This document shows positions 4,582 through 18,996 of a DNA stretch of 41,230 bases, in pieces. This DNA is from Gammaproteobacteria bacterium. Its GTDB lineage: Bacteria; Pseudomonadota; Gammaproteobacteria; Steroidobacterales; GCA-2729495. A model generated the notes under the pieces. The model saw only the letters and a program-made list of their open reading frames with translations, was not told where the DNA came from and did not search any database. Where the stretch lies: positions 1-41,230 of the forward strand of contig JAJFJS010000090.1 in NCBI GenBank assembly GCA_021773815.1. Direction: 5' to 3'. Every line of letters starts with the position of its first letter. Within the stretch, counting starts at the first letter, position 1. The translations under genes and the position numbers were made by a program.

Positions 4582-5955
4582 ATGTCCGTCGCCCGGCCAC
4601 AACCCAAAGACACGATCGTGGCCCGCGCCACGGCGGCCGGTCGTGGTGGCGTCGCCATCGTGCGCATCTCCGGCGCAGCTGTTGCCGGGATTGCGCAGCC
4701 ACTGATCGGCAGTTTGCCGGAACCGCGTTATGCAGCGTTGCGGCCTTTTCTCGATGCCGACGGCGAGCCGATCGACACCGGCATCGCGCTTTGGTTCCCG
4801 GCGCCGCATTCATACACCGGCGAAGATGTACTCGAATTGCACGCGCACGGCGGCCCGGTCATCAGCGAACTGCTCGTGGCGCGCGTCGTTGCGCTTGGCG
4901 CCCGACGGGCCGAACCCGGCGAGTTCACGCGCCGTGCCTTCATCAACGACAAGCTTGATCTCAGCCAGGCCGAAGCCGTTGCCGACCTGATCGACAGCGG
5001 TTCGGCCACGGCCGCGCGCGCGGCGCAGCGGGCGTTGCAGGGCAAATTCTCCGCCGCGGTCTTCACGTTGAATGCAAAAGTCACGCAGTTGCGCATCCAT
5101 GTCGAAGCGGCGATCGATTTTCCCGAAGAAGAAATCGACTTTCTGCAGGATGCGGCATTACTCGAACGGCTCGATGATGTGCGGGCAGAATTCGTCCGGC
5201 TCGAGGCCACGGTCCGGCACGGCCGGCTGCTGCGCGACGGCGTGCACATCGTGCTCGCCGGCCGGCCCAATGCCGGCAAGTCATCGCTGCTCAACGCGCT
5301 TGCCGGTTACGACGCGGCGATCGTGACCGATGTGCCGGGCACGACGCGCGATGTTGTCCGCGAAAACATCGAGATCGACGGCCTGCCCGTGCACATCATC
5401 GACACGGCCGGGCTGCGTGAAGGCGAGGGGGTTGTCGAGCAAGAAGGCATTCGCCGCGCGCGGCAACAGATCGCCGCCGCTGATCACGCGCTGATCGTCA
5501 TCGATGCGGCCAACGACCCGCCGTCCACGGCCGCATCACTCGTCAACGAGCTGCCGGCCGGACTCCGCGTTAGCGGAGGGCATACCATCGTCCGGAACAA
5601 GATCGATCTGACCGGCGAGCGTGTGGGCATCGATGCCGATAATCCGGCCACGATTCATCTGTCCGCGCTGCACGGCGACGGCATCGACGAACTGCGAGCG
5701 CGCATCCAGGCGACGGTCGGCTACTCGGTCGACGCGGGTGAGACGATCACGGCCCGGCAGCGCCATGTCGAGACGCTGCGTCGCGCGCGTGAACACTTCG
5801 AAGCCGGCCGCTCATGTCTGCTCGACCAGGCGGCCGGCGAACTAATGGCCGAAGAACTGCTGCAGGTCCAGAATTGCCTTGCCGAGATCACCGGCGAATT
5901 CACCAGCGATGACCTGCTGGGTGAGATATTCGCGGCTTTCTGTATCGGCAAATAG
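4582..5955 (+). CDS. mnmE: tRNA modification GTPase MnmE
   Basis: MnmE works with MnmG to add a (carboxymethyl)aminomethyl group to the wobble uridine of certain tRNAs. The 457-residue protein has the N-terminal folate-binding domain ([20 protein letters not shown]), a helical domain, an inserted G domain with P-loop GRPNAGKS (227-234), the DTAGLRE G3 motif, and the C-terminal FCIGK whose cysteine (C454) is conserved in the family. It starts 45 bases after yidC. Its partner mnmG lies about 5.8 kb downstream, beyond an accessory block. Confidence 0.97.
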
Positions 5956-5960
5956 CGAGC

Positions 5961-5976
5961 GCCCGGCAACCCGGGC
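5961..5976. terminator. Small GC hairpin between convergent mnmE and a membrane-protein gene
   Basis: GCCCGG (5961-5966) and CCGGGC (5971-5976) form a perfect six-base-pair stem with a CAAC loop in the 25-base gap between two convergent genes. There is no T run, so a termination role on either strand is only a guess. Confidence 0.35.
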
Positions 5977-5980
5977 CTGA

Positions 5981-6397
5981 TCAGGATCCCCGTCGCTTGG
6001 GCATGAAATAGCCGATGCCCATATCGAGCGCATAGGCCAGTACGAAATTCAGCACTGTCACGAGTACGGCCATGATCACGCCGCCGATGATGACGTTGTC
6101 GCGGAATTCGCCGGCTGCTGCTGCGTCCCGGGCATAAAAGACCATCCAGCCGATCGCGACCAAGGTCGCGGTGACGGCCCAGACGCGGAACGCGAACCGC
6201 TCCAGTGCCGCCGCATCAGGCCCGCTCTTGAGCCGGTAGATCGGTGTCGCGATGAGCGCGCCGAGCATGAATGCGATGACAAAACCGAGCAGCGCCGGTG
6301 CCGCTTCCTGGATCTCATATTCGATGCCACGGAACGCCCAGCCCATATATACGGCCATGACGACGCTGAGGACACTTATTCTTATTGCTGTATTCAT
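5981..6397 (-). CDS. Small hypothetical inner-membrane protein
   Basis: I do not recognise a family. The 138-residue product starts MNTAIRISVLSVVMAVYMGW and has four hydrophobic stretches (about 5-21, 32-50, 70-87 and 103-124) joined by short charged loops, ending in the basic tail FMPKRRGS. It looks like a four-helix integral membrane protein. It runs opposite to mnmE and is divergent from the lipoprotein cluster at 6758. A good promoter (6464-6436) and an AAGGG-type ribosome-binding site precede the ATG at 6397, so it is probably a real, independently expressed gene. Nothing in the sequence ties it functionally to the neighbouring cluster. Confidence 0.75.
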   Translation of the reverse strand: MNTAIRISVLSVVMAVYMGWAFRGIEYEIQEAAPALLGFVIAFMLGALIATPIYRLKSGPDAAALERFAFRVWAVTATLVAIGWMVFYARDAAAAGEFRDNVIIGGVIMAVLVTVLNFVLAYALDMGIGYFMPKRRGS

Positions 6398-6757
6398 GAT
6401 CGACCGCCCTTCACCTGATGGACACCTATGCGGTGAACATATTGGAATAGTTTGTGTCTATCAATACTATGCGGAGTCCCGATGACGCACAGCGGTAACA
6501 TCCCGTGCTTCCACGGGGCGGTCGACGCATCGCGGCTGATACAATTTGTTACGACCTGTAAGGGATTCGGTAAGAGATCCCGGTTAGAATCGCGGAGCGC
6601 ACAGGGGGACGAAAGCCCGGTTGGCCCAAGCAAGGGGCTGCGGTGCGACGAATTCACATTGTTGGGAAAAACCAGTGGCGGCGATGAGAGATGCGCTTGC
6701 ATGGCGCGACGTCGCCCCGGAGTTTTTGCCGAATAACTGGTAATGCAGGAGAAGAAC
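6398..6757. other. Long divergent intergenic region and leader of the lipoprotein cluster
   Basis: This 360-base region separates the leftward membrane-protein gene from the rightward lipoprotein cluster. Besides the minus-strand promoter it contains a -10-like TACAAT at 6540-6545 without a good -35. Several stretches could fold on the plus strand, for example GGGAT and ATCCC arms around 6563-6583 and a G-rich/C-rich pair around 6604-6622. No coding sequence is convincing here. The length and the potential structure allow a cis-acting RNA element. I compared it by eye with known riboswitch cores, including cobalamin, and could not match one. Confidence 0.4.
6436..6464 (-). promoter_or_regulatory. 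Probable sigma-70 promoter of the small membrane-protein gene
   Basis: On the minus strand TTGATA (6464-6459; five of six consensus bases) is followed by a 17-base spacer and TATGTT (6441-6436; four of six). It lies about 40 bases upstream of the ATG at 6397. The element is seen in the sequence; its activity is inferred. Confidence 0.5.
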
Positions 6758-7729
6758 TTGATCGGAACAACCATTCGACTGGCGCTGATTGTACTTGTCA
6801 GTGCCGTATTGCTTACGGCCTGCGACAGCGGACCGGCTCCGGCCGAGCAGGGCAAAGTCAACATCGGCGTGTTGCTGATCGCGCACGGTTCGACGTCTTC
6901 CACATGGAACGGCATGATCAAGACCTTCGCCGATGAACTCCGGACCTCACTGGCGGGCAACGACGCAGTCGGCGATCTTCGCCTGGCTTTCATTGACGAG
7001 CCGAAGTCGAGTATTGCCGACGAACTGCGCGCCTTCGACAAGGCGAATTACGATGAGGTCATCATCGTGCCGCTATTTATCGCCGCTGAATCGACGCGGT
7101 CGAATAAATACCTGGCCTACCTGATCGGCATGCGCTCGGACGCGGGCCAGGTCAAGCAGCTCGAGAAAGAGGGTTACGATATTTATTATCCGCGCACCCG
7201 CGTCAGCGTCGCGCCGGCCCTGAACGAGGGCGGCGCGCTGAAGAAAAACGTATTGCGCCGCGTTCAGGAATTGCAGAAAGACGATGACGGCGAGGACATG
7301 GGCGTCCTGCTGGTCGGTTACGGCGATCAGGCCTACGGCCAGCAAATGCAGGAAACGATGGAGAACATCGGCCGTTATCTGAAGATCAAGACGGACATGG
7401 ACACGGTGGCCTACGCATTTTGCGGTGATCTGGTCGACTATTCCGGTGAGCCGGTCGTCAAAGCGATCAACGAAGTGCTCGACCTCGAAGAAGAGGTGCT
7501 CGTCGTGCCGGTGTTGCTCGGCATCGATGAGAAGCTCCACGTCAACACGATCGAGGCGGCCGTGAATGCGGTGCCGACCGCATCGCGTATACGCTATGCG
7601 CCGACGGCCGTTTTGCCGGATCCGAAGATCAACGCCTGGGTCGAACAGCAGATCGTGGCCGCGGTAGTGCGGGTGAACGCCGCAGGCGGCGACATTGTCG
7701 GCAAGGTCATCCCGGCCAGCGAACTTTGA
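6758..7729 (+). CDS. CbiX-like (sirohydrochlorin chelatase fold) lipoprotein, second metal histidine missing
   Basis: The product is a predicted lipoprotein: a hydrophobic signal peptide ending in the lipobox LLTAC (acylated cysteine 22 from the TTG start), then a mature part with the strand-HGS motif of CbiX/SirB-type chelatases (IGVLLIAHGS; H43). A second half repeats the fold with GVLLVGYGD, where the histidine is replaced by tyrosine-glycine. In cytoplasmic CbiX a second metal ligand comes from a GGH motif after a PLFL strand; here the strand is VPLFIAAES, so that histidine is absent. I chose TTG at 6758 because AGGAG lies six bases before it; ATG at 6743 (five residues longer) has no ribosome-binding site. 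The chelatase fold is recognised, but catalysis is unproven and doubtful. It heads a three-gene cluster with 7765 and 9262. Confidence 0.85.
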   Translation: MIGTTIRLALIVLVSAVLLTACDSGPAPAEQGKVNIGVLLIAHGSTSSTWNGMIKTFADELRTSLAGNDAVGDLRLAFIDEPKSSIADELRAFDKANYDEVIIVPLFIAAESTRSNKYLAYLIGMRSDAGQVKQLEKEGYDIYYPRTRVSVAPALNEGGALKKNVLRRVQELQKDDDGEDMGVLLVGYGDQAYGQQMQETMENIGRYLKIKTDMDTVAYAFCGDLVDYSGEPVVKAINEVLDLEEEVLVVPVLLGIDEKLHVNTIEAAVNAVPTASRIRYAPTAVLPDPKINAWVEQQIVAAVVRVNAAGGDIVGKVIPASEL

Positions 7730-7764
7730 TTCGCGGACGAGAATGACATGAAGCGCGGACAAAT

Positions 7765-9210
7765 ATGAATACCAACACTGCAAGCCTGCCGCTTCCGTGG
7801 AAGAAATTCGGGTTGACGCTGATTGCGGGCGCGGCATTCATGTACTTCTGGGTCAACGGCCCGCTCGCTGAGCGGGCGCCGGTGTTTGAATTTGAGGAAC
7901 ACGTGACCGGTTTTGGCGAACCGGTGCGCGTCGGTGACGAATTTATCCCGCCAAAGTTCGGCGTCGTCGGCAGTTCGGAACGCAATCCGTACCATCACGT
8001 CATGGCCGCGAAAGAAGAGCCCCGTCCATTGTTTGCCATCATCGGCGACTCGCGCACCAACCCGGGTCTCGCGGCGGAGGTCGCCGAACAGGTACTGGCG
8101 AACGGCGTGAGTCATGCGATGAATCCGGATGGCGTCACGCTCAGGACGGCACTCGATCTCTATTTCACGGAGGAGCGCAACGCCGACGGACAGGTCGTGC
8201 AGCTCTATTTCGAGAACACCGGCCTGAACAAATACATCAAGGGTTATGCCGGGCCGATCGATATCGGCATGGCGGTCGGCGCGGACGGCTTGATTCGTTC
8301 GGTCACGCACGTGCAGTCGATGGAAACGACAAGTTATCTGCGGGACATCGAGAATGCCGGTTTCTACGAGCAGTTCCAGGGCCTGCCGCTCGACGATCAG
8401 ACTTACGAGGTCGATATCGTCAGCGGCGCTTCGCTGACGACCGAAGGCATCGCCCGCAGCGTCAGCGATCTCGTCAGCATCGCCCGCGAATCACCGCTGG
8501 AAATCTATATCGATACGCAGGCCGCCGGGTTCGAGACGATACCCGTTCTGCCGAGCACCTGGATGATCGACGCGGCGCTGATCTCGCTGTTGTTCGTCCT
8601 GACATTCTTCAAGTTTGCCCGGCGATCCACGAAACTGAGCCTGGCGTTCGGGCTCGTCACGATTGCCTACCTCGGGTTCTGGCATAACAACTCGTTTACG
8701 TACGCGACCTTCACGCAGCCGTTCCTGGGCATCACCTGGTCCTACATACTCGGGATCTACGCAGCGTTGGTGTTGCTGAGCGCAATCTGGGATGCGAATT
8801 CGTATTGTCGTTACATTTGTCCGTACGGCAACGTGCAGCGCGTGCTGATGCGATTGATTCCTTGGCACGGCAAGCTGAAGGTTTCCAATCGCATGCTGGA
8901 TCTGTTGCGCTGGGCCATCACGATTACGCTGGTCATCGGTATCTTTACCGGGCTGCGCGACTGGGCGAGCTACGAGCTGTTCCCGGACCTGTTTGGTCTC
9001 GAGATCATGGACTCGCCGTGGTTCTGGCTGTCGCTGGGACTCGTGCTCGTGTCCGCGTATTACCCGATGCTGTGGTGCCGCATGCTGTGTCCCACCGGCG
9101 CAGTTCTCGACGGCATCGCGTTTGTGGCAAGATCGAAGTCAGGGAAACAGCGGCACAAGGCTGCGGGACGGCCGGGTCCGTCTGCGGTGGGACAGCCGGT
9201 CAGCGCATAA
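7765..9210 (+). CDS. NosR-like membrane protein with FMN-binding domain and two CX3CP motifs
   Basis: The 481-residue protein has an N-terminal membrane helix (about 14-32), an extracytoplasmic FMN-binding domain of the NosR/RnfG/NqrC type (about 90-240), then about five membrane helices (about 265-440). The flavinylation motif is DIVSGAS (217-223); serine 223 occupies the place usually held by the FMN-accepting threonine. CRYICP (C348, C352) and CRMLCP (C438, C442) resemble the paired CX3CP motifs of NosR and related four-helix ferredoxin-like membrane proteins. NosR's C-terminal ferredoxin domain is absent; the tail after 455 is short and basic. Such proteins carry electrons between the membrane and the periplasm. 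No nitrous oxide reductase gene is nearby, so NosR itself is unlikely. It lies 35 bases after one CbiX-like lipoprotein gene and 51 before another. Confidence 0.85.
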   Translation: MNTNTASLPLPWKKFGLTLIAGAAFMYFWVNGPLAERAPVFEFEEHVTGFGEPVRVGDEFIPPKFGVVGSSERNPYHHVMAAKEEPRPLFAIIGDSRTNPGLAAEVAEQVLANGVSHAMNPDGVTLRTALDLYFTEERNADGQVVQLYFENTGLNKYIKGYAGPIDIGMAVGADGLIRSVTHVQSMETTSYLRDIENAGFYEQFQGLPLDDQTYEVDIVSGASLTTEGIARSVSDLVSIARESPLEIYIDTQAAGFETIPVLPSTWMIDAALISLLFVLTFFKFARRSTKLSLAFGLVTIAYLGFWHNNSFTYATFTQPFLGITWSYILGIYAALVLLSAIWDANSYCRYICPYGNVQRVLMRLIPWHGKLKVSNRMLDLLRWAITITLVIGIFTGLRDWASYELFPDLFGLEIMDSPWFWLSLGLVLVSAYYPMLWCRMLCPTGAVLDGIAFVARSKSGKQRHKAAGRPGPSAVGQPVSA

Positions 9211-9261
9211 TGCGCCAGACGGTCGCCTGAGTAACGCCGAATTGCGGCAGGAGGAGATGAA

Positions 9262-10224
9262 ATGAATAAGTTTTGGTCACTATTGAGTATCACCGTGCTA
9301 TCGGTGCTGATGCTCGCTGGCTGCGGCCAGTCGAAGGATTCGACACAGGTGGCGGCTGCCAAGGATGCCGGGCCGAAGATCGGCGTGTTGCTGATCAATC
9401 ACGGCTCCGAGCAAAAGGCCTGGCGCGACATGCTCGTCGATGTCGAAAACAAGGTCAAAAAACAGCTGCTCGCGCTGCCGAACGTGCAGGGCGTGAAGAC
9501 GGCGTTTAACGAATATACCGAGCCGTCACTCGCCACACAGATGAAGGCATTCGATGACGAGGGTTTCGATGAGGTCATCGCATTGCCGCTGTTCCTGACG
9601 GTCGGCGGCCACACCAACGCGGACTTGCCGAACGGGCTCGGGCTGAAGAACGACTCCGACCTGCTCGAATCGTTGCCGAAGGAGGGCGTGCCCGTGTATC
9701 GCCCGCGCGCTCGCGTCACGCTATTGCAGACCATCGACGCGACCGAGTTCCTGAAGACCAACATCCTGCGCCGGACCAAGGCGCTGATGCCCGAAGGTGC
9801 TGACGGCAGCAAGTATGGTGTGACGCTGGCAGCCTACGGCGATGCCGGCTTCAACCAGCAATGGGAAGAGCTGATGGCCGAACTCGGCAATCATCTGAAA
9901 GAGAACCTCGGCATCGATATGGTGAACTCCGCGTGGAGCGGCCACCTCGTCAACTATTCGATCGAGCCGACGAAAAAGGCGATCAACCAGGTGCTGGCCG
10001 AGAAAGAAAAGGATGTTCTGATTTCGGTCTACGTCGCTTACGACTATATGTTCCAGCGGGACATCATCGGCGAAGCCGGCCGTCTGTCGGTCCGGCCGGA
10101 CGACGTGCTCTATAACGAGCCCGAAGCGATTCTGCCGGACGAGAACCTGAATGGCTGGGTCGTCAAGTCCATCGAGGAAAGCCTGTCGACCGGTCGTCTC
10201 GGATCAATGACCGCCGGGACGTAA
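9262..10224 (+). CDS. CbiX-like (sirohydrochlorin chelatase fold) lipoprotein with both HGS and GGH motifs
   Basis: A 320-residue predicted lipoprotein: signal peptide MNKFWSLLSITVLSVLMLAG, then acylated cysteine 21. The mature part has GVLLINHGS (H47) and LPLFLTVGGHTNADLP (H117), the two conserved histidine motifs of CbiX-type cobalt or iron chelatases, so this copy keeps a plausible metal site. The C-terminal half repeats the fold, with AAYGD (192-194) where an HGS would be. It is clearly paralogous to the product at 6758 (shared IGVLLI.HGS, YGD, and RxRV segments). The start has a strong AGGAGG-type site eight bases upstream. Known cytoplasmic CbiX inserts Co2+ into sirohydrochlorin; a lipid-anchored envelope version must do something else or be a binding protein. 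It ends the cluster, followed by two hairpins. Confidence 0.87.
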   Translation: MNKFWSLLSITVLSVLMLAGCGQSKDSTQVAAAKDAGPKIGVLLINHGSEQKAWRDMLVDVENKVKKQLLALPNVQGVKTAFNEYTEPSLATQMKAFDDEGFDEVIALPLFLTVGGHTNADLPNGLGLKNDSDLLESLPKEGVPVYRPRARVTLLQTIDATEFLKTNILRRTKALMPEGADGSKYGVTLAAYGDAGFNQQWEELMAELGNHLKENLGIDMVNSAWSGHLVNYSIEPTKKAINQVLAEKEKDVLISVYVAYDYMFQRDIIGEAGRLSVRPDDVLYNEPEAILPDENLNGWVVKSIEESLSTGRLGSMTAGT

Positions 10225-10256
10225 GAATTCCCGGGAAGTAAATATCCTGATGGTCG

Positions 10257-10325
10257 ACCCGTGTCGGATGACTCCGGTTATCTGACACGGGTTCGATCGT
10301 CTGCACTGCCGGCGCTCGCCGGCAG
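10257..10325. terminator. Two strong inverted repeats between convergent genes
   Basis: ACCCGTGTC (10257-10265) pairs with GACACGGGT (10284-10292), and CTGCCGGCG (10306-10314) pairs with CGCCGGCAG (10317-10325). Both stems are nine base pairs without mismatch. They lie between the end of the lipoprotein cluster and the end of the leftward GGDEF-like gene and may end transcription from both sides. Neither is followed by a T run, so Rho-independent termination is uncertain. Confidence 0.45.
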
Positions 10326-10377
10326 GCTGCACGCCAGCGCGGCGCAAATCCGTTCAACCAGCCGGTGAGATTCCGCG

Positions 10378-11592
10378 CTAGCTGCGCCGCGGCTCCAGCC
10401 TGACGATTTCTGCGTGGCGCGGCGCCGGTGTTGCGGCGCTGCAAATACGGCTGGTGCTGGCAAGCCGCGCTCGTCCGAGCGCATCATCGGCACGCGCCAG
10501 CAGATCCGCTGTCGATTCCCCGCGACGGTATTCGGCAATACCGCAATACAGTGTGACGCCATGCAATTCGCCGTCGCGTTCTTTGTTGCACGCTGCGAGT
10601 ATGCGCTCGGCCGTTCGGCCGGCGCCGGCTAACCCGGTTTGCGGCAGAATCGCGACATATTCGGTGTCGCTGTATGGCCCGAAGCAATCATGGAAACCGG
10701 TCGCATTCAGGGAATCCATGTCGCGTAACTGATTGCGGATAAACACCTCGACCGCGCCGGCGGCCCGTAAACGATCCGGGTCATCGTCAGACCCGGGGGT
10801 CGGCGCGATATCGGCGTTAAACAGGCAGATGCAAAACGGCACGTTGGATCGATTCGTTCGGCCCTTTTCGCGGGACAGGATATCGAGAATGTAACGCCGC
10901 CGGACCGAGTGCGCGGTATTTCCCTGGTCCGCGCGGCTTAGCCGGGCCTGCAGTTCTGCATGCTCTGACTGCAGCCGGCGATGCAGCCGGTGGACGTACC
11001 CGCCGGTGACGGAGATAGCAAACATGATGGCGGCAAACACCAGGATCTTCGTCAGGTCGGCAACGGTGACGGCGGGCGGTTCCCCCGACAATGCCTGCAC
11101 GAGGTTGACGACGGCATAGCTGACGACGGCGAACACGGCAATCTGGTTCAGCGTATTGCGCCCCACGCGCAGCACCGCGAACAACACAATGGATGCGTAT
11201 ATCCCGATGATCAGTTCGCCGGCGCCGGTGCTCATGAACGCGAATAGCGTGGCCCAGGCGATACCCACGACACACTGCGCGAGTGCGATGGTTGCCATCG
11301 GCGGTTGTTGCAGCGCGTTGCTGCGTGCCGTAAAGAAGAACAGGATGTTCGTCGCGCCAACGCCCAGCAGCATGATGCCGGCCGCGCGCTGGGCCATGAA
11401 CAAAGTGCCGGCGGCTACGCTGAGCCAAGCCAGTGCAGACCAGCCGGCATACACCGTCAGGACGATGCAGAACTGCGCCATCGGCGTCGCCCCGTCGGGC
11501 GCAGGCCCGTTTTCGGACTCTGGTTCGGGAGCCGTCAATTCTTGGCGCGTTAGTGGCACGTCATGGGTGATGCGTTGAAAAAGACGGCCCAT
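10378..11592 (-). CDS. Membrane protein with degenerate GGDEF domain
   Basis: The product (404 residues from ATG 11592) has about seven hydrophobic segments in its first 200 residues (MASE-like sensor arrangement, exact family unknown), a helical linker, and a C-terminal domain aligning with diguanylate cyclases: YVAILPQTGLAGAGRTAERI, GVTLYCGIAEY and ADDALGRAR. The signature loop reads YSDTEY (307-312) instead of GGDEF, and the metal-binding DxD is not intact (LFNADIA). It is therefore unlikely to make cyclic di-GMP; it may bind a nucleotide or act only as a signalling partner. TTG at 11634 is an alternative, longer start; neither start has a clear ribosome-binding site. Confidence 0.8.
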   Translation of the reverse strand: MGRLFQRITHDVPLTRQELTAPEPESENGPAPDGATPMAQFCIVLTVYAGWSALAWLSVAAGTLFMAQRAAGIMLLGVGATNILFFFTARSNALQQPPMATIALAQCVVGIAWATLFAFMSTGAGELIIGIYASIVLFAVLRVGRNTLNQIAVFAVVSYAVVNLVQALSGEPPAVTVADLTKILVFAAIMFAISVTGGYVHRLHRRLQSEHAELQARLSRADQGNTAHSVRRRYILDILSREKGRTNRSNVPFCICLFNADIAPTPGSDDDPDRLRAAGAVEVFIRNQLRDMDSLNATGFHDCFGPYSDTEYVAILPQTGLAGAGRTAERILAACNKERDGELHGVTLYCGIAEYRRGESTADLLARADDALGRARLASTSRICSAATPAPRHAEIVRLEPRRS

Positions 11593-11706: not shown

Positions 11707-13638
11707 ATGACCGCCCGTTCAATCAGGGCCACGGATGTCGTGAACAATCATTTTGATGTCATCGTCGTCGGCGGCGGACACGCCGGCACGGAGGCCGCGG
11801 CCGCGGCCGCGCGCGCCGGCGCGCGCACTGTGCTGTTGTCGCAGAGCCTCGATGCGCTCGGGCAGATGAGCTGCAATCCGGCCATCGGCGGCATCGGCAA
11901 GGGTCACCTGGCCCGCGAGATCGATGCGCTCGGCGGGCTGATGGCTCGCGCAATCGATCGCGCTGGTATTCATTTTCGGATCCTGAATGCCAGCAAGGGC
12001 CCCGCTGTGCGGGCGACCCGCGCGCAGGCCGATCGCGTGTTATACCGACAGGCCATAAGGCACCTGCTCGACGAACAGCCCAATCTGTCGTTGTTTCAAC
12101 AGAATGTCGATGACCTGCTGCTGGACGGCGATCGCATCACCGGCGTCGTCACGGGCCTCGGCATCCGTTTTTATGCGCCGGCCGTCGTACTGACCGTCGG
12201 CACGTTCCTGGGCGGACGCATCCACGTCGGCCAGTCGAATCACAGCGGCGGCCGTGCCGGTGACCCGGCATCCGTTCGGCTCGCCGACCGGTTGCGTGAG
12301 CTGCCGTTTCGCGTCGGCCGGTTGAAGACCGGTACGCCGCCCAGGATCGACGGTCGCACGATCAACTTCGATGTCATGGGCGTTCAGCATGGCGATACGC
12401 CCACGCCGGTATTCTCGTTTCTCGGCCGCCGGTCGGAACATCCGCGGCAACTACCGTGTTACCTGACCAAGACGACGGCCGCGACCCACGAGATCATTCG
12501 CGGGGCGCTCGATCGGTCGCCGTTGTATACCGGCGCCATCGACGGCGTCGGTCCGCGCTATTGCCCGTCGATCGAAGACAAGATTACGCGTTTTGCCGAT
12601 CGCCAGTCGCACCAGGTGTTCGTCGAGCCCGAGGGGCTGGATGCGGCCGAGTACTACCCGAACGGTATCTCGACAAGCCTGCCGTTTGATGCGCAGGAGG
12701 CATTCGTCGCGACGATACCCGGCTTCGAGGCGGCGCGAATCACCCGGCCAGGTTATGCGATCGAGTATGACTACTTCGATCCGCGTGATCTTCGCCCAAC
12801 GCTCGAGACGCGCGTGCTCGGCGGGTTGTTTTTCGCCGGACAGATCAACGGTACGACCGGTTACGAGGAGGCCGGTGCGCAGGGCCTGCTCGCCGGCATC
12901 AATGCGGCGCTGCTGGCGCGCGACGAAGCGCCGTGGACGCCGCAGCGCCACGAGGCCTATATCGGCGTACTCGTCGATGACCTGATCACGCGCGGCACGC
13001 AGGAACCGTACCGGATGTTCACGAGTCGTGCCGAGTATCGGCTGCTGCTGCGCGAGGACAATGCGGACCTGAGATTGACGGAAAAAGGCCGCGAACTCGG
13101 CCTCGTCGATTCGGTCCGCTGGCAGTTCTTCGCGACGAAACGCGAACGCATCGAACGGGAAACGGCACGCCTGGCCGCGACGATCGTCCACCCCGAGGCG
13201 CTCGATGACATCCATCGCAAGCAGCTCGGCGGGCCATTGCGGAGAGAGCAGACGGCGCTCGAGTTGCTGCGGCGACCGGAACTGGATTACCACGCGCTGA
13301 CGAGCATTACCGCGGTCGGCACGCGCGAGCGCGACCCGGCAGAAATCGAAGAGATGACGGCACAGATCGAGGACCAGGTGCAGATCAACGCGCGGTACAG
13401 CGGCTACCTGGCGCGACAGGATCAGGAGATCCTGCGCGCCCGGCGTAATGAGACGACGACGCTGCCCGACGACCTCGACTACGATGGGGTGCGCGGGCTG
13501 TCGAATGAAATCCGGCAGAAACTCACGGCCACGCGTCCGGCGACCGTCGGTCAGGCATCGCGAATCTCCGGCATGACGCCGGCCGCGGTCTCATTGTTGC
13601 TGGTGCATTTGAAGAAGCAGGAGCTGAAACGTGCCTGA
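11707..13638 (+). CDS. mnmG: tRNA uridine-5-carboxymethylaminomethyl modification enzyme MnmG (GidA)
   Basis: MnmG is the FAD- and NADH-dependent partner of MnmE in wobble-uridine modification. The 643-residue frame has the dinucleotide-binding [11 protein letters not shown] (21-31), [31 protein letters not shown] and the C-terminal helical region ending [15 protein letters not shown], all typical of the family. GTG at 11740 ([13 protein letters not shown]) is a plausible shorter start that matches the usual N-terminal length better. Its last eight bases overlap the oppA start. In most relatives rsmG follows directly; here about 7.1 kb of transporter and redox genes intervene. Confidence 0.97.
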
Positions 13639-15280
13639 TGGCTTTGCGTTGCCGTGCCGGCTCGGCATCGTCGCCACTGTCTTGCTGCTGACCGGCTGCG
13701 GCGGCGAATCCGATCCGCGGTCCGCTGTCGGCATCGGTGGTCAGACGGGTCAGGAACTGGCCGCGGACCAGACATTGCATGTCGGCAATTACGCCGAGCC
13801 GCAGACGCTCGACCCGCACCGCGCCGAAGGCGTTCCGGCCTCCAATATCCTGCGCGACTTGTATGAGGGTCTGACAAGCGAGGCGCCCGACGGCGCAGTC
13901 GTGCCCGGGGTCGCTGCGAGCTGGGAAGTCAGCGCGGACGGCCGCGTCTACACGTTCCGGCTGCGCGACGATGCGCGCTGGAGCAACGGCGATCCGGTCA
14001 CGGCCGAAGATTTCGTCTATGGATTTCGCCGCACAGTGAATCCGGCCACGTTGTCGCACTATTCGAGCATCCTCGAGCCGATCGACAATGCGGCCGCGAT
14101 CATCGCCGGTGAGCAGCCCCCGGAAACGCTGGGCGTGGAAGCCGTTGACGCACATACGCTGGTGATTCGGCTGACCGGGCCGACGCCGTACCTGCCCGGA
14201 TTGCTCAATCATTCGACGACCTATCCGGTGCACCGGCGTTCCGTCGAAGAGCACGGCAACCGCTTCGCGCGCCCGGGTCAGTTGATCGGTAACGGGGCCT
14301 ACCGGCTGGCCGAATGGAACGTGCAGTCGCACATCAAGCTCGTTCGCAATGAGCACTACTGGGACGATAAAGCGACGACAATCGACACTGTTTTTTATTA
14401 TCCGATCGAGAATCAGGACACCGAGCTCAAGCGATTCCGGGCCGATGAGCTCGACATCACGAACGATATTCCGTACCAGCAACTCAACTGGATCCGTGAG
14501 AATCTTGGCAGCGACCTCGTCGTGTCTGCCTACCTGGGCAGCTATTACTTCGGCTACAACGTCACGCGCCCGCCGTTCAAGGGCAACGCGAAACTGCGCC
14601 GCGCGCTGTCGCTGGCCGTCGATCGCGACATCATCACGGAGCGGATCACCAATGCCGGGGAAATACCCGCTTACGGCTGGGTACCGCCGGTCACCGGTTA
14701 TCCGCCCGCTGAACCCGAGTGGGCCGGCTGGACGCAGGCCGAGCGCAATGCCGAGGCTCGTCAGCTGTACGCCCAGGCGGGTTATTCGGCCGAGCGGCCG
14801 CTGACCGTCGAAATCCTCTATAACACGAGTGAGAACCATAAACGCACCAGCGTTGCCATCGCCTCGATGTGGAAAGAAACGCTCGGTGTCGAGACGAAAC
14901 TCCTGAACCAGGAGTGGAAGGTGTTCCTCGATACGCGGCGGCGCAAGGAAACGACCGAGGTCTTTCGCGCCGGCTGGATCGGTGATTACAACGATGCGTT
15001 CTCGTTTTCCCAGCTCATGCATTCGGCAAACGAGATGAACCATGCCGGCTACGCGAGTCCCGCCTACGACGCGCTGATCGACAGCGCCGCGTCGGAACAG
15101 AACACAGATGTGCGCGCCGCGATCCTCGCGCGCGCCGAGGCGCAATTGCTCGAAGATATGCCGATTATTCCGGTGTATTTCTACGTGTCGAAGCACCTGG
15201 TCAAGCAATGGGTCGGCGGGCGCCGGCCCAATATCATGGATCACCACTACACGAAGAATTTCTATATTCTTGAACACTGA
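13631..15280 (+). CDS. oppA: Oligopeptide ABC transporter substrate-binding lipoprotein (OppA-like)
   Basis: A 549-residue SBP_bac_5-type periplasmic solute-binding protein. The signal peptide ends in the lipobox LLLTGC (cysteine 23), so it is membrane-anchored. Family landmarks include [50 protein letters not shown] and [20 protein letters not shown]. The start is GTG at 13631 inside the end of mnmG (overlap of eight bases), which suggests translational coupling. It is followed by two permease genes and a fused ATPase gene, a complete importer. Oligopeptides are the likely substrate; MppA-like murein-peptide binding is also possible. Confidence 0.92.
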
Positions 15281-15386
15281 CAGTGGCGTCCCGGGCGCCG
15301 GCTCGGGCCGGCCGTGATTCGGAAATCTATCGAGGCGCGTAGCCGGGGCGACGGAATGCAGAGAGTCTCTTTTTGCCGCTGATGCC

Positions 15387-16307
15387 ATGCTGAAATTTGT
15401 CGTCCGCCGTCTGCTCAGCGCGATTCCGACGCTGCTGATCCTGATCGCGCTCGCGTTCTGCCTGATCCGCCTTGCGCCCGGCGGCCCGTTCGATGGTGAG
15501 AAGCAGTTGCCGCCCGAGATCGAGGCCAATTTGCGCGCCGCCTATCACCTGGATGAGCCGCTGTATCGGCAGTTCGGGCGCTACATGGCGAACCTCGCGC
15601 GCGGTGATTTCGGTCCGTCATTTCAGTACCGGGATTTCAGCGTCACGGAACTGATCCGCAGCGGTTTTCCGGTCTCGCTGAAACTCGGCGGGCTGGCGAT
15701 GCTGCTTGCGCTGTTGATCGGCGTGACGGCAGGCTCGGTCGCGGCATTGCGCCAGAATTCGCTGATCGATCATGGGGTCATGACGACGGCGATGATCGGT
15801 ATCTCGATTCCCAACTTCGTCGTCGCGCCGCTGCTGATCCTGGTGTTTGCGGTCGGGTTGCGCTGGTTGCCGGCCGGCGGGCTCGGTGACGGTTCGCCGC
15901 GGCACCTGGTGCTGCCGGTGATCGCGCTGGCATTGCCGCAAGTCGCCTACATCGCGCGGCTGACCCGCGGCAGCATGATCGAGGTGCTGCGCAGCCCGTT
16001 TATTCGCACGGCGCGGGCGCAGGGGCTGTCGATGCGCCGGATCATGGTCCTGCACGCACTCAAGCCGACGCTGCTGCCGGTCGTCTCCTACCTCGGGCCG
16101 GCGACGGCTGCGGTGGTGACCGGCTCGGTCGTTATCGAGCAAATCTTCGGCGTGCCGGGCCTCGGCCGGTATTTCGTGCAGGGGGCGTTGAATCGCGACT
16201 ACACGCTCGTCATGGGCGTTGTCGTGTTCTACGGCACGTTGATCATCGTCTTTAATTTCCTGGTCGATCTCATTTACGGCTGGCTTGACCCGCGCGTGCG
16301 GCCGTGA
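15387..16307 (+). CDS. oppB: Oligopeptide ABC transporter permease OppB
   Basis: A 306-residue inner-membrane permease with the OppB/DppB N-terminus (MLKFVVRRLLSAIPTLLILI), about six membrane helices and the EAA-type loop (RTARAQGLSMRRIMVLHALK) that contacts the ATPase. It ends in the typical [14 protein letters not shown]. It starts 106 bases after oppA, and its stop overlaps the oppC start by four bases. Confidence 0.95.
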   Translation: MLKFVVRRLLSAIPTLLILIALAFCLIRLAPGGPFDGEKQLPPEIEANLRAAYHLDEPLYRQFGRYMANLARGDFGPSFQYRDFSVTELIRSGFPVSLKLGGLAMLLALLIGVTAGSVAALRQNSLIDHGVMTTAMIGISIPNFVVAPLLILVFAVGLRWLPAGGLGDGSPRHLVLPVIALALPQVAYIARLTRGSMIEVLRSPFIRTARAQGLSMRRIMVLHALKPTLLPVVSYLGPATAAVVTGSVVIEQIFGVPGLGRYFVQGALNRDYTLVMGVVVFYGTLIIVFNFLVDLIYGWLDPRVRP

Positions 16308-17188
16308 ATGCACCGGCACATCCCACGACCGGACGCAGCCTGTGGCGCGATGCCTGGACGGTGTTGCGGCGTAACCGGGCGGCGGTGACGGCGCTCGTCA
16401 TCCTCGTCGTGCTGACCGTGGTCGTCGTCGTGGCGCCGTGGTTCAGCGGGCACAGCATCGATGCGACCGACTGGGATCACATATCCGTGCCGCCGTCATG
16501 GACAGGCGGACACTGGTTCGGTACCGACGGGCTGGGCCGCGACCTGTTCGTGCGCACGCTGCACGGCGGACGCGTCTCGCTGCTCGTCGGGATCGTCGCG
16601 ACGCTGGTCAGCCTCGTGATCGGCGTCACTTACGGCGCGATTTCGGGATATGCCGGCGGACGCGTTGACCAGGTCATGATGCGGATTGTCGATATTCTGT
16701 ATGCGCTGCCGTTCATGTTCCTCGTGATCCTGCTGATGGTTTTTTTCGGTCGCAGCATCGTGCTGATCTTCGTTGCGATCGGCGCCATCAACTGGCTGGA
16801 TATGGCGCGCATCGTCCGTGGTCAGGCGCTGAGCCTGAAGAACCGGGAATTCATCGAGGCCGCGCGAGCCGGCGGCGTCTCGCCGGCACGAATCATCCGG
16901 CGCCATGTCGTGCCGAACCTGCTCGGCGTCGTGGTGATCTACATCACGCTGACGATTCCGCAGGTGATCCTCGTCGAGTCGTTCCTGAGTTTCCTGGGTC
17001 TCGGTGTGCAGGAGCCGATGACGTCCTGGGGCGCCCTCGTCAACGAAGGCGCACAGGAAATGGAAAATGCACCGTGGATGCTCATTTTCCCGGCGCTGTT
17101 TCTGACCATCACGCTGTTTTGCTTTAATTTCGTCGGCGACGGGTTGCGCGACGCGCTCGATCCGCGCGACCGGGGCGCTGCATCGTGA
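16304..17188 (+). CDS. oppC: Oligopeptide ABC transporter permease OppC
   Basis: The second permease, 294 residues, with the OppC N-terminal domain ([20 protein letters not shown]), the [13 protein letters not shown] motif and the EAA loop [20 protein letters not shown]. It ends [11 protein letters not shown], as is usual. The start is GTG at 16304, overlapping the oppB stop in a GTGA arrangement. Its own stop overlaps the next gene in the same way, so the three genes are translationally coupled. Confidence 0.95.
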
Positions 17189-18996
17189 CGGCGGTGGGGG
17201 AACCGTTGCTATCGGTCACCGCGCTCGACGTGACGTTCGACACCGCCGACGGTCCCGTGCATGCGGTCCGTGATCTGAGCTTTGACGTCGCCCACGCCGA
17301 AACGCTGGGCATCGTCGGCGAGTCGGGTTCCGGCAAGACCCAGACCGTCCTCGCGGCGCTCGGCCTGCTGGCCCCGAACGGCGCCGCCACCGGCCGGGCG
17401 CTGTTCGAGGGCCGTGACCTGCTGCTCCTGTCTGAGTCGCAACTGCGCGAGATTCGCGGTAACCGCATCGCGATGATCTTCCAGGATCCGATGACCTCGC
17501 TGAATCCCTACCTGACGATCGGTCGGCAGATGGCCGAGGTCCTGCGCCGACACCGCGGCCTCGACCGGCGCGCCGCGCTGCGTGAATGCGTGATGCTGCT
17601 CGATGCCGTGCAGATCGCCGATGCCCGGCGGCGCCTCGATCAGTATCCGCATGAACTTTCGGGCGGCATGCGCCAGCGCATCATGATCGCGGCAGCGTTG
17701 CTGTGCCGGCCCGCGCTGCTGATCGCCGACGAACCGACGACGGCGCTCGACGTGACGGTGCAGGCGCAGATCCTGATGCTGCTCGGCGAGTTGCGGGCGG
17801 AATTTTCCACGTCGATCATCCTGATCACGCACGATCTCGGTGTCGTGGCCGGCACCTGCGAGCGCGTTATGGTGATGCGCGACGGGGTCATGCAGGAGAG
17901 CGGCGCGATCGACGATGTCTTCTTCGGTTCCACGAACGACTATACGCGTGCGCTGCTCGCGGCCGTGCCGCGGCTGGACGGTGAGAACGCCGATGCGTTG
18001 CGGCCTGCGCCGGATGATGCGGCGCCGATACTTGCCGCCGCCAACATCAGCGTGGACTTTCGTCTGCCGGCCGATAGATGGTTCGGCCCGGCCCGTTACC
18101 TGCGGGCGGTCGATGACGTGTCCATCGACATTCGGCCCGGTGAAACCGTGGGTATCGTCGGGGAATCGGGCTGCGGCAAGTCGACGCTGGCGCGCGCGAT
18201 CCTGCGGCTTGTCGACATGCATGAAGGTCGGGTCAGCCTGCTGGGCCGCGATCTGTCCGGACTCGACAAAGCGACGCTGCGCGGCGCGCGCCGGGATATG
18301 CAGATGATCTTTCAGGACCCGCTGGCGTCGCTGGATCCGCGCATGTCGATCGGGCGCATTGTCGGCGAGCCGCTCGAGACGTTCTTCCCGGCGCTGTCCG
18401 CCGCCGAACGCGCGGATCGCATCGCCGGGATGTTGCGGCGGGTCGGGCTCGATCCCGAGTGCGTGAACCGCTACCCGCACGAGTTTTCCGGCGGCCAGTG
18501 TCAGCGTATCGGCATCGCGCGCGCGCTGATCTGCAGGCCGCGGCTGGTGATCTGCGATGAACCGGTCAGCGCGCTGGATGTCACGATTCAGGCGCAGATC
18601 ATCGCGCTGCTGATCGACCTGCAGCGCGAGTTGCAGCTGGCCGTCGTGTTCATCGCGCACGATCTGGCCGTCGTGCGGCGCATCAGTCACCGGGTTGTCG
18701 TGATGTACCTGGGCAATGCGGTCGAGGTTGCCGCGACCCGGACGCTTTTCGCGACGCCGCTGCATCCGTATACCCGCGCGCTGATCGCGGCGGCGCCGGT
18801 GCCTGATCCGCGCATCGAGCGGTCCCGCCGCCGCGCGTCGGTGCGGGGTGAGGTACCGTCGCCGCTGGAACGCCCGACCGGGTGCGCGTTCCAGACCCGC
18901 TGCGTGCATGCCGAGCGCCGCTGTGAGCTGCAGCAACCCGCGCTGGCCCGCCACGGCGCCTCGTCCGTGGCCTGTTTGCGGGTCGGTGAGATCTGA
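17185..18996 (+). CDS. Fused oligopeptide ABC transporter ATPase (OppD-OppF in one chain)
   Basis: One 603-residue chain with two complete ABC ATPase domains. The first has Walker A GESGSGKT (45-52) and signature LSGGMRQR (158-165). The second has Walker [10 protein letters not shown] (326-334) and signature FSGGQCQR (434-441). Each half also has its Walker B ([12 protein letters not shown] and [12 protein letters not shown]). Only the second half ends in the cysteine-rich oligopeptide/dipeptide C-terminal segment ([14 protein letters not shown]). Separate oppD and oppF genes are the common form; fusions occur in YejF and GsiA. The start GTG at 17185 overlaps the oppC stop by four bases. Confidence 0.95.

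Follow-up and report, generated by a model that had tools for sequence, protein, structure and literature searches.

A candidate three-gene envelope module, combining chelatase-fold lipoproteins and a NosR/PceC-like flavoprotein, for taking iron out of haem

Introduction

What would two proteins of a chelatase family do in the cell envelope, on either side of a membrane protein that carries a flavin? The question is raised by a locus in 41,230 nucleotides of DNA (contig JAJFJS010000090.1 of assembly GCA_021773815.1; hereafter the window, meaning this whole stretch) from a gammaproteobacterium of the Steroidobacterales, in which three co-oriented genes, separated by gaps of 35 and 51 bases, encode the lipoprotein lpA, a membrane protein and the lipoprotein lpB. 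An earlier note on this DNA had described this arrangement, which the open reading frames and Pfam confirm (the lipoprotein signals by pattern), and had proposed that electrons passed to the envelope accompany the handling of metal in a tetrapyrrole. Our analysis suggests that the module probably strips haem of its iron on the outside of the cytoplasm. We give about even chances to a more specific reading, in which a class II ferrochelatase-superfamily enzyme would run backwards, powered by quinol through a covalently flavinylated NosR/PceC-like protein, as a self-contained periplasmic reductive haem de-chelatase that evolved independently of the class I enzyme HmuS and has been exchanged with HmuS among HmuY loci. 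The genes of the module are:

6758..7729 (alternative ATG start 6743), + strand: lpA, CbiX-fold lipoprotein, apparently a degenerate paralogue (PF01903 3.8e-10, model, site table)
7765..9210, + strand: NosR/PceC-like membrane flavoprotein (PF12801 4.3e-9, PF04205 1.2e-7, motifs, alignment, PDB sequence matches)
9262..10224, + strand: lpB, CbiX/SirB-fold lipoprotein, proposed de-chelatase (PF01903 5.1e-14, model, CfbA alignment, site table)

Chelatase-fold lipoproteins

Both lipoproteins match CbiX (PF01903) above the Pfam curated cutoff of 22 bits, at 40.4 bits for lpA and 52.9 bits for lpB, and their genes are the sole CbiX matches at E 0.001 in the genome (3.87 Mb, 149 contigs). Scores against the NCBIfam model of CfbA type (44.9 bits for lpA, 61.3 for lpB) are both under the equivalog cutoff of 120. 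A simple pattern recovers lipobox-type motifs, LTAC27 in lpA (ATG numbering) and LAGC21 in lpB, and both are predicted lipoproteins.

Structure models, built from shallow alignments of 15 rows (mean predicted local distance difference test 81.2 for lpA and 79.6 for lpB), give both proteins a predicted two-lobed class II chelatase fold, SirB/ferrochelatase-like, in keeping with the fold that had been proposed from sequence. The best VIA matches are SirB structures in each case: 6jv6 for lpA (Z 22.2, root-mean-square deviation 2.8, 227 aligned) and 5zta_B for lpB (Z 18.4, root-mean-square deviation 3.5, 239 aligned). Ferrochelatases rank after SirB, and Z is 19.8 (lpA) and 13.8 (lpB) for CbiK-P, and 19.2 and 13.5 for structure 9b86, the FetB that we take to be IhtB of Porphyromonas gingivalis. 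Sugar-type binding proteins rank below the tetrapyrrole chelatases. When Foldseek matches of lpB are ordered by E-value, the first row is 2jh3_A (Deinococcus DR2241), followed by SirB; by sequence, the closest solved structure to lpB is CfbA (3.4e-9).

The earlier note had given the lipoproteins a joint role; by the site table the two are not equivalent. The metal site of SirB is formed by His10/Glu43/His76, corresponding to His9/Glu42/His75 of CfbA (PMC11301274). Alignment to CfbA gives His47/Glu84/His117 as the lpB equivalents, and these three residues plus His228 are kept in 13/13 non-lpA copies (7 lpB and 6 others). The lpA copies (n = 7) all have the first His, but the Glu is kept in only three (Asp in 3, Gln in 1), and neither the second metal His nor the His228 equivalent occurs in any of the seven; lpA retains HGS. 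Because lpB keeps the metal ligands and lpA has lost most of them, lpB looks catalytic and lpA looks degenerate.

In the lipoprotein tree, lpA and lpB form separate clades (support 100/100); the backbone among the other copies is open, and the lpA/lpB duplication is therefore not placed. The N-terminal and C-terminal halves of lpB align with a score of 52, compared with a mean of 31 for 200 shuffles (standard deviation 6, maximum 50.5), which lends mild support to an internal repeat. In Escherichia coli, an Asp directly after the lipobox Cys keeps a lipoprotein in the inner membrane (the +2 rule). The residue is Asp in lpA of the window and of the related loci L005 and L006, and by this rule lpA would stay in the inner membrane beside the flavoprotein; the indication is weak, because L007 to L009 carry Gly.

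The membrane flavoprotein

The membrane protein matches Fer4_5 (PF12801) and FMN_bind (PF04205), both, like CbiX in the lipoproteins, above the Pfam cutoff in the searches that had been suggested as a check. The attachment motif for flavin mononucleotide (FMN), DIVSGAS, occupies residues 217-223 and the two CX3CP motifs are at 348 and 438, as had been read from the sequence. Matches among PDB sequences are RnfG and other FMN domains. PceC/RdhC-like proteins have six transmembrane helices, and a crude hydropathy plot of the window protein has three distinct regions over threshold. The earlier reading as a NosR-like flavin membrane protein is supported, with one correction: the score against the NosR equivalog NF046105 is 21.6 bits with a cutoff of 1000, and there is no detectable NosR-type C-terminal ferredoxin, Pfam giving beyond Fer4_5 only Fer4_18 at E 0.63. 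An FMN domain together with two CX3CP motifs defines PceC/RdhC (PMC5928378), and judged by its motifs the window protein has this NapH-like flavinylated feature set.

Within the set of 369 genomes of the window's class, a separate search for the membrane protein finds it in the three genomes that have the lipoproteins, and finds a remote homologue in G438. There, at L045:3918-7098, a reductive dehalogenase (TIGR02486, 169 bits, over cutoff) is followed by the PceC-like remote homologue. In the window, the membrane protein is flanked by the chelatase-fold lipoproteins and no nosZ or rdhA was recognised beside it. A NosR-like protein of Prevotella (L044) has, by eye, no lipoprotein of the lpA/lpB kind among its neighbours and was set aside.

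Conservation and distribution of the module

Among 99 genomes near the window genome, its own included, nine have an lpB match and eight are counted as carriers; a weak match in G091 (2.3e-4, in a 1292-aa frame) was not counted. All eight carriers, including the window genome, encode both lipoproteins, in the order lpA-membrane protein-lpB and on one strand, so that the neighbourhood survey bears out the three-gene order, and its recurrence argues for more than chance. A genome-contig search yielded eight loci, seven of them relatives. The eighth, a match of 26 residues in L012 (Clostridiales), was taken as chance and dropped before counts were made.

The window module sits between mnmE and mnmG, whose products were confirmed in the window, and L005 and L006, from the same genus, have the same flanks. 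These flanks are absent in L007, L008 and L009, so that the module moves as a unit. Profile searches with the lipoproteins at E 1e-20 found them in 3/369 genomes of the class, 1/54 of the family of G441 and 1/299 of the phylum, counts that include the own genome where it is in the set. The module is rare and scattered.

Haem-uptake genes beside the module in relatives

The pathway had been called not obvious, and it is the relatives that indicate one: HmuY, TonB receptor and ExbB/ExbD genes beside their modules point to haem-iron acquisition. In two species of Persicobacter (Bacteroidota; L003 and L004), a single lipoprotein gene precedes a frame of 1211 or 1223 residues (L003:10980-14615, L004:10926-14597) in which the NosR-like part is joined to a TonB receptor, with FMN_bind, Fer4_5, Plug and beta-barrel matches by Pfam in L003; HmuY, which belongs to a family of haem-binding proteins, comes next after the long frame (1.3e-8 in L003, 1.1e-9 in L004). 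To the eye, the junction between NosR-like part and receptor resembles an internal signal peptide; signal peptidase might cut the product as a polyprotein, or the frame may hold an internal start. The locus of Rhabdochromatium marinum (L011) has one lipoprotein and the membrane protein, with a TonB receptor on either side, and no HmuY was recognised there.

Two further loci represent two families of the same class as the window, neither of them its own. The cluster in L035 (G441) comprises HmuY (2e-18), a TonB receptor, ExbB, ExbD, a lipoprotein and the membrane protein, as well as DUF2325, two ferritin-like genes (one tested by Pfam), imelysin and a porin-like gene without a Pfam match. Just upstream of its lipoprotein, a 101-residue protein (L035:9759-10064) overlaps a weak HugZ-family match (5.2e-5). 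In L036 (G228), ExbB/ExbD-like genes (by similarity or eye), a TonB receptor, HmuY (8e-15) and a peroxiredoxin are followed by a lipoprotein, the membrane protein, a second lipoprotein, DUF2325, a porin-like gene (by eye) and imelysin. HmuY over cutoff thus stands beside the module in three lineages: Persicobacter, L035 and L036.

HmuY loci without the module

HmuY occurs in 13/369 class genomes, among which are both non-own carriers of that set (G228 and G441), with HmuY and the module in the same locus. The 11 other HmuY genomes provide a comparison set of 12 HmuY loci, up to 19 kb each, and the lipoprotein/NosR-like pair is in 0/12 of these, a profile search for the lipoprotein included. 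A CobN-type class I chelatase together with DUF2325 is found in three of the 12 (L067 and L069, and L063 with a piece of 414 residues); such CobN-type, HmuS-like relatives have ~1340 residues and belong to PF02514, a family with no match in the three module proteins or in the window genome. DUF2325-type genes were located at L035:4400-5584 and L036:6090-7433 in HmuY loci with the module and at L063:11873-12997, L067:10688-12061 and L069:5525-6796 in those with CobN. Three other loci (L064, L065 and L068) carry HutZ/HugZ-like proteins, below curated cutoffs, with a binding-protein gene beside each (by Pfam in L064, by eye and similarity in L065 and L068). In L066, a 565-residue protein (L066:4980-6677) lies beside HmuY and a TonB receptor and matches CbiX at 0.0017 and the CfbA-type model at 5.8e-5; weak CbiX-like stretches occur in both halves and the N-terminus reads as a signal, so that it is maybe a tandem class II chelatase and another de-chelatase candidate. 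The L061 locus has a PepSY membrane protein but lacks CobN and module alike, an ABC ATPase is encoded in L071, and no haem-iron release gene was recognised in L062, L070 and L072.

The receptor and HmuY of L036 are 48-52% identical to their counterparts in L063, L067 and L069, and almost as similar to those of L066 (receptor 49%, HmuY 45%) and, in HmuY, to L065 (51%, with the receptor at 42%). Close relatives of one kind of locus thus differ in what they carry: the module, or an HmuS-like, a HutZ-like or a weakly CbiX-like gene. Across whole genomes, CobN is present in 9/11 HmuY genomes without the module (three of them in the HmuY locus; partial in G172 and in pieces in G383) and in 0/2 with it, and among all carriers it is found in 1/10 (G003 has both). 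A CobN gene outside the HmuY locus may serve cobalamin. The HugZ family at E 0.001 is matched in 8/30 genomes, none over the curated cutoff and none of them among the eight window-family carriers.

Proposed mechanism and its alternatives

Combined, these observations suggest the following scheme. Haem would enter the periplasm via a TonB-dependent receptor presumably encoded elsewhere in the window genome (in relatives the receptor is adjacent or joined). The inner-membrane NosR/PceC-like flavoprotein would take electrons, probably from quinol, if it behaves as its family does, and its periplasmic FMN, attached by ApbE, would reduce Fe(III)-haem. With the metal ligands of SirB/CfbA, lpB would then run the chelatase reaction backwards to yield Fe(II) and free porphyrin, the former entering the cell through FeoB, whose gene is present and whose link to the module is conjectural. 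The part of lpA is the most speculative, and the protein might bind or hand over haem, or dock lpB to the flavoprotein. The earlier idea of electron transfer coupled to metal removal from a tetrapyrrole is supported in this sense, although we infer both the reverse chelation by lpB and, for the window's own organism, haem as its substrate.

Several observations weigh against this scheme. HmuY has no match in the window genome or its seven family carriers (0/8), nor was a receptor gene recognised among the immediate neighbours of the window module; haem as the substrate in this organism would be assigned by homology. The predicted fold and ligands would suit metal insertion, or haem binding alone, just as well. 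The membrane-protein gene of L036 (8366-10227) is missing the part for the N-terminus, and a TGA lies close to the start of the first lipoprotein, through either assembly error or decay. The swap between module and HmuS is not clean: a HutZ-like gene (L065) or a weakly CbiX-like one (L066) is found in HmuY loci that resemble L036 as closely as the loci with CobN do, and the receptor and HmuY of L035 represent another lineage, nearest to L061 (42 and 38%), whose locus has no CobN and no module. The genome-wide anticorrelation with CobN is suggestive, but confounded by phylogeny: CobN is also lacking in 7/9 non-carrier relatives of the window's family, and weight is therefore placed on the loci rather than on this count. 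The HugZ family is matched below cutoff in both G228 and G441, the G228 gene lying elsewhere in the genome. FeoB (10/10 carriers, 14/16 non-carriers) and ApbE (26/26 genomes tested, 16/16 non-carriers) are near-ubiquitous and fail as discriminators. Finally, the best Fur box in the window (11/19) is within the range of 200 shuffles of that region; the best in L011 and L036 reach 13/19, on a shuffle background made from the window region only.

Among other explanations, the one that deserves most attention, though we regard it as unlikely, is haem capture and relay without iron removal, with the chelatase folds acting as haem chaperones and the flavoprotein keeping haem iron or thiols reduced. 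The loss of most of the metal site in 7/7 lpA copies fits this, two lipoproteins could form a relay, and CbiK-P sets a precedent, to judge from the title of its paper, for a class II chelatase that evolved into a haem-binding protein. A mere carrier would not be expected, however, to keep the three SirB metal ligands in 13/13 non-lpA copies, and some other HmuY loci have HmuS-like or HutZ/HugZ-like genes and no module. The same ligands and the CbiX/SirB/CfbA fold would suit a forward or cobalt-directed chelatase that inserts or exchanges metal in a periplasmic corrinoid or porphyrin, and PceC-type proteins are tied to reductive dehalogenases, which are corrinoid enzymes. We consider this improbable: HmuY, imelysin, ferritin and TonB genes make up the neighbours identified in relatives, and no Rfam family, the cobalamin riboswitch included, reached gathering score in the window.

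A slightly poorer prospect still is reductive iron release from ferric siderophores with the chelatase-fold proteins as binding proteins. Flavinylated membrane reductases of the PepSY class are linked with TonB genes (PMC8238504) and relatives of the module have adjacent TonB receptors, but HmuY stands beside the module in three lineages and the best fold matches are tetrapyrrole chelatases, with sugar-type binding proteins lower. Least probable, in our estimate a long shot, is an unrelated envelope redox role of the membrane protein, in stress or with a respiratory reductase, in which case the haem genes would be its neighbours by coincidence. The window locus, between mnmE and mnmG with no haem gene recognised beside the module, would agree with that, as would the many reductases that NapH-like flavoproteins are described as serving (PMC8238504); the HmuY linkage, however, recurs in two phyla against a class background of 13/369.

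Comparison with known systems

One of the closest parallels to the proposed de-chelatase is HmuS of the Bacteroidota hmu operon, described as a class I enzyme for membrane-bound haem de-chelation that is tied to HmuY/HmuR uptake and needs reduction of the haem iron (PMC12583661), and whose in vivo electron donor is called unresolved (PMC12583661, PMC13227078). HmuS is of the CobN type, whereas the window lipoproteins, of ~320 residues, have class II CbiX/SirB folds and are encoded on either side of a flavoprotein. Export of class II chelatase-like proteins has precedents. IhtB is a putative haem-binding lipoprotein homologous to CbiK that is thought to strip haem iron (PMC10913741, PMC6460266), and CbiK-P of Desulfovibrio vulgaris is a periplasmic class II chelatase, called a haem-binding protein in the title of its paper. 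IhtB/FetB is, like lpA and lpB, a lipoprotein with the class II chelatase fold (for lpA and lpB, the fold is from models and the lipobox by pattern only), but is CbiK-like by sequence and absent from the profile and phmmer matches listed among PDB sequences; CbiK-P likewise belongs to the CbiK family and lpA/lpB to the CbiX/SirB type. One relative, L036:7417-8376, reaches 27.8 bits for CbiK (cutoff 26.2). The Iht system, as described from IhtA to IhtE in PMC10913741, includes no NosR-like protein, and the module has one.

SirB, CfbA and CbiX supply the best VIA fold matches, the best sequence matches among solved structures and a His/Glu/His metal site as in lpB. They are biosynthetic insertion enzymes, whereas the window proteins bear lipobox-type signals and have relatives in haem-uptake loci. 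With NosR and PceC/RdhC, for which outward electron transfer from the quinol pool has been proposed (PMC5928378, PMC8238504), the membrane protein shares FMN_bind and a Fer4_5 region with two CX3CP motifs; it differs in being flanked by chelatase-fold lipoproteins. Most reactions of NapH-like flavinylated proteins are said to be unknown, and the words chelatase and HmuY are absent from the main text of that paper (PMC8238504). In open-licence PubMed Central papers, we found no account in which a lipoprotein of CbiX/SirB type and a NosR/PceC-like flavoprotein form a pair, nor one that places such a pair in HmuY loci.

If the proposed de-chelatase is real, a single set of genes, carried by environmental bacteria some of which can be cultured, would hold both the electron donor and the chelatase, and the donor question, stated as unresolved for HmuS (PMC12583661, PMC13227078), would become directly testable. 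A ferrochelatase-superfamily enzyme would have been reversed for nutrition, in convergence with HmuS of class I, and some of the NapH-like flavinylated proteins would gain a job. It would also urge caution against naming such lipoproteins sirohydrochlorin chelatases from the domain alone.

Gene starts and surroundings of the locus

Two further features lie upstream of the module:

6398..6757, no strand assigned: intergenic region between divergent genes (no Rfam family; Fur box matches within the range of shuffles)
5981..6397, - strand: small hydrophobic protein, 138 aa, divergent (no Pfam match; adjoins the module in four relatives)

For lpA, the TTG start at 6758 is plausibly preferred over ATG 6743, because a purine-rich stretch followed by TTG is also present in L005 and L006. 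The small divergent protein, with 0 matches in the Pfam search, neighbours the module also in L005, L006, L007 and L010 and was not seen beside it in L008 and L009. A search for a riboswitch or structured RNA upstream of lpA gave only a chance match (E 2.3 in 5950-10450) and a folding z-score of -1.0. A GTAACAATTTGTTAC-like inverted repeat lies at ~6538-6552, clearest in L005, degenerate in the window and with an equivalent in L006, and is a possible operator.

Behind mnmG, genes of an Opp-type peptide transporter are found near the window module (13631-18996), and a related transporter, rearranged, lies upstream of the module in L008 (874-6467) and L009. Peptide permeases can carry haem in E. 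coli. Downstream of the module in the same two loci, on the opposite strand, is a very large open reading frame (L008:11055-16079, 1674 aa; L009:11058-15974, 1638 aa), which in L008 joins Ig/cadherin-like domains to a TonB receptor.

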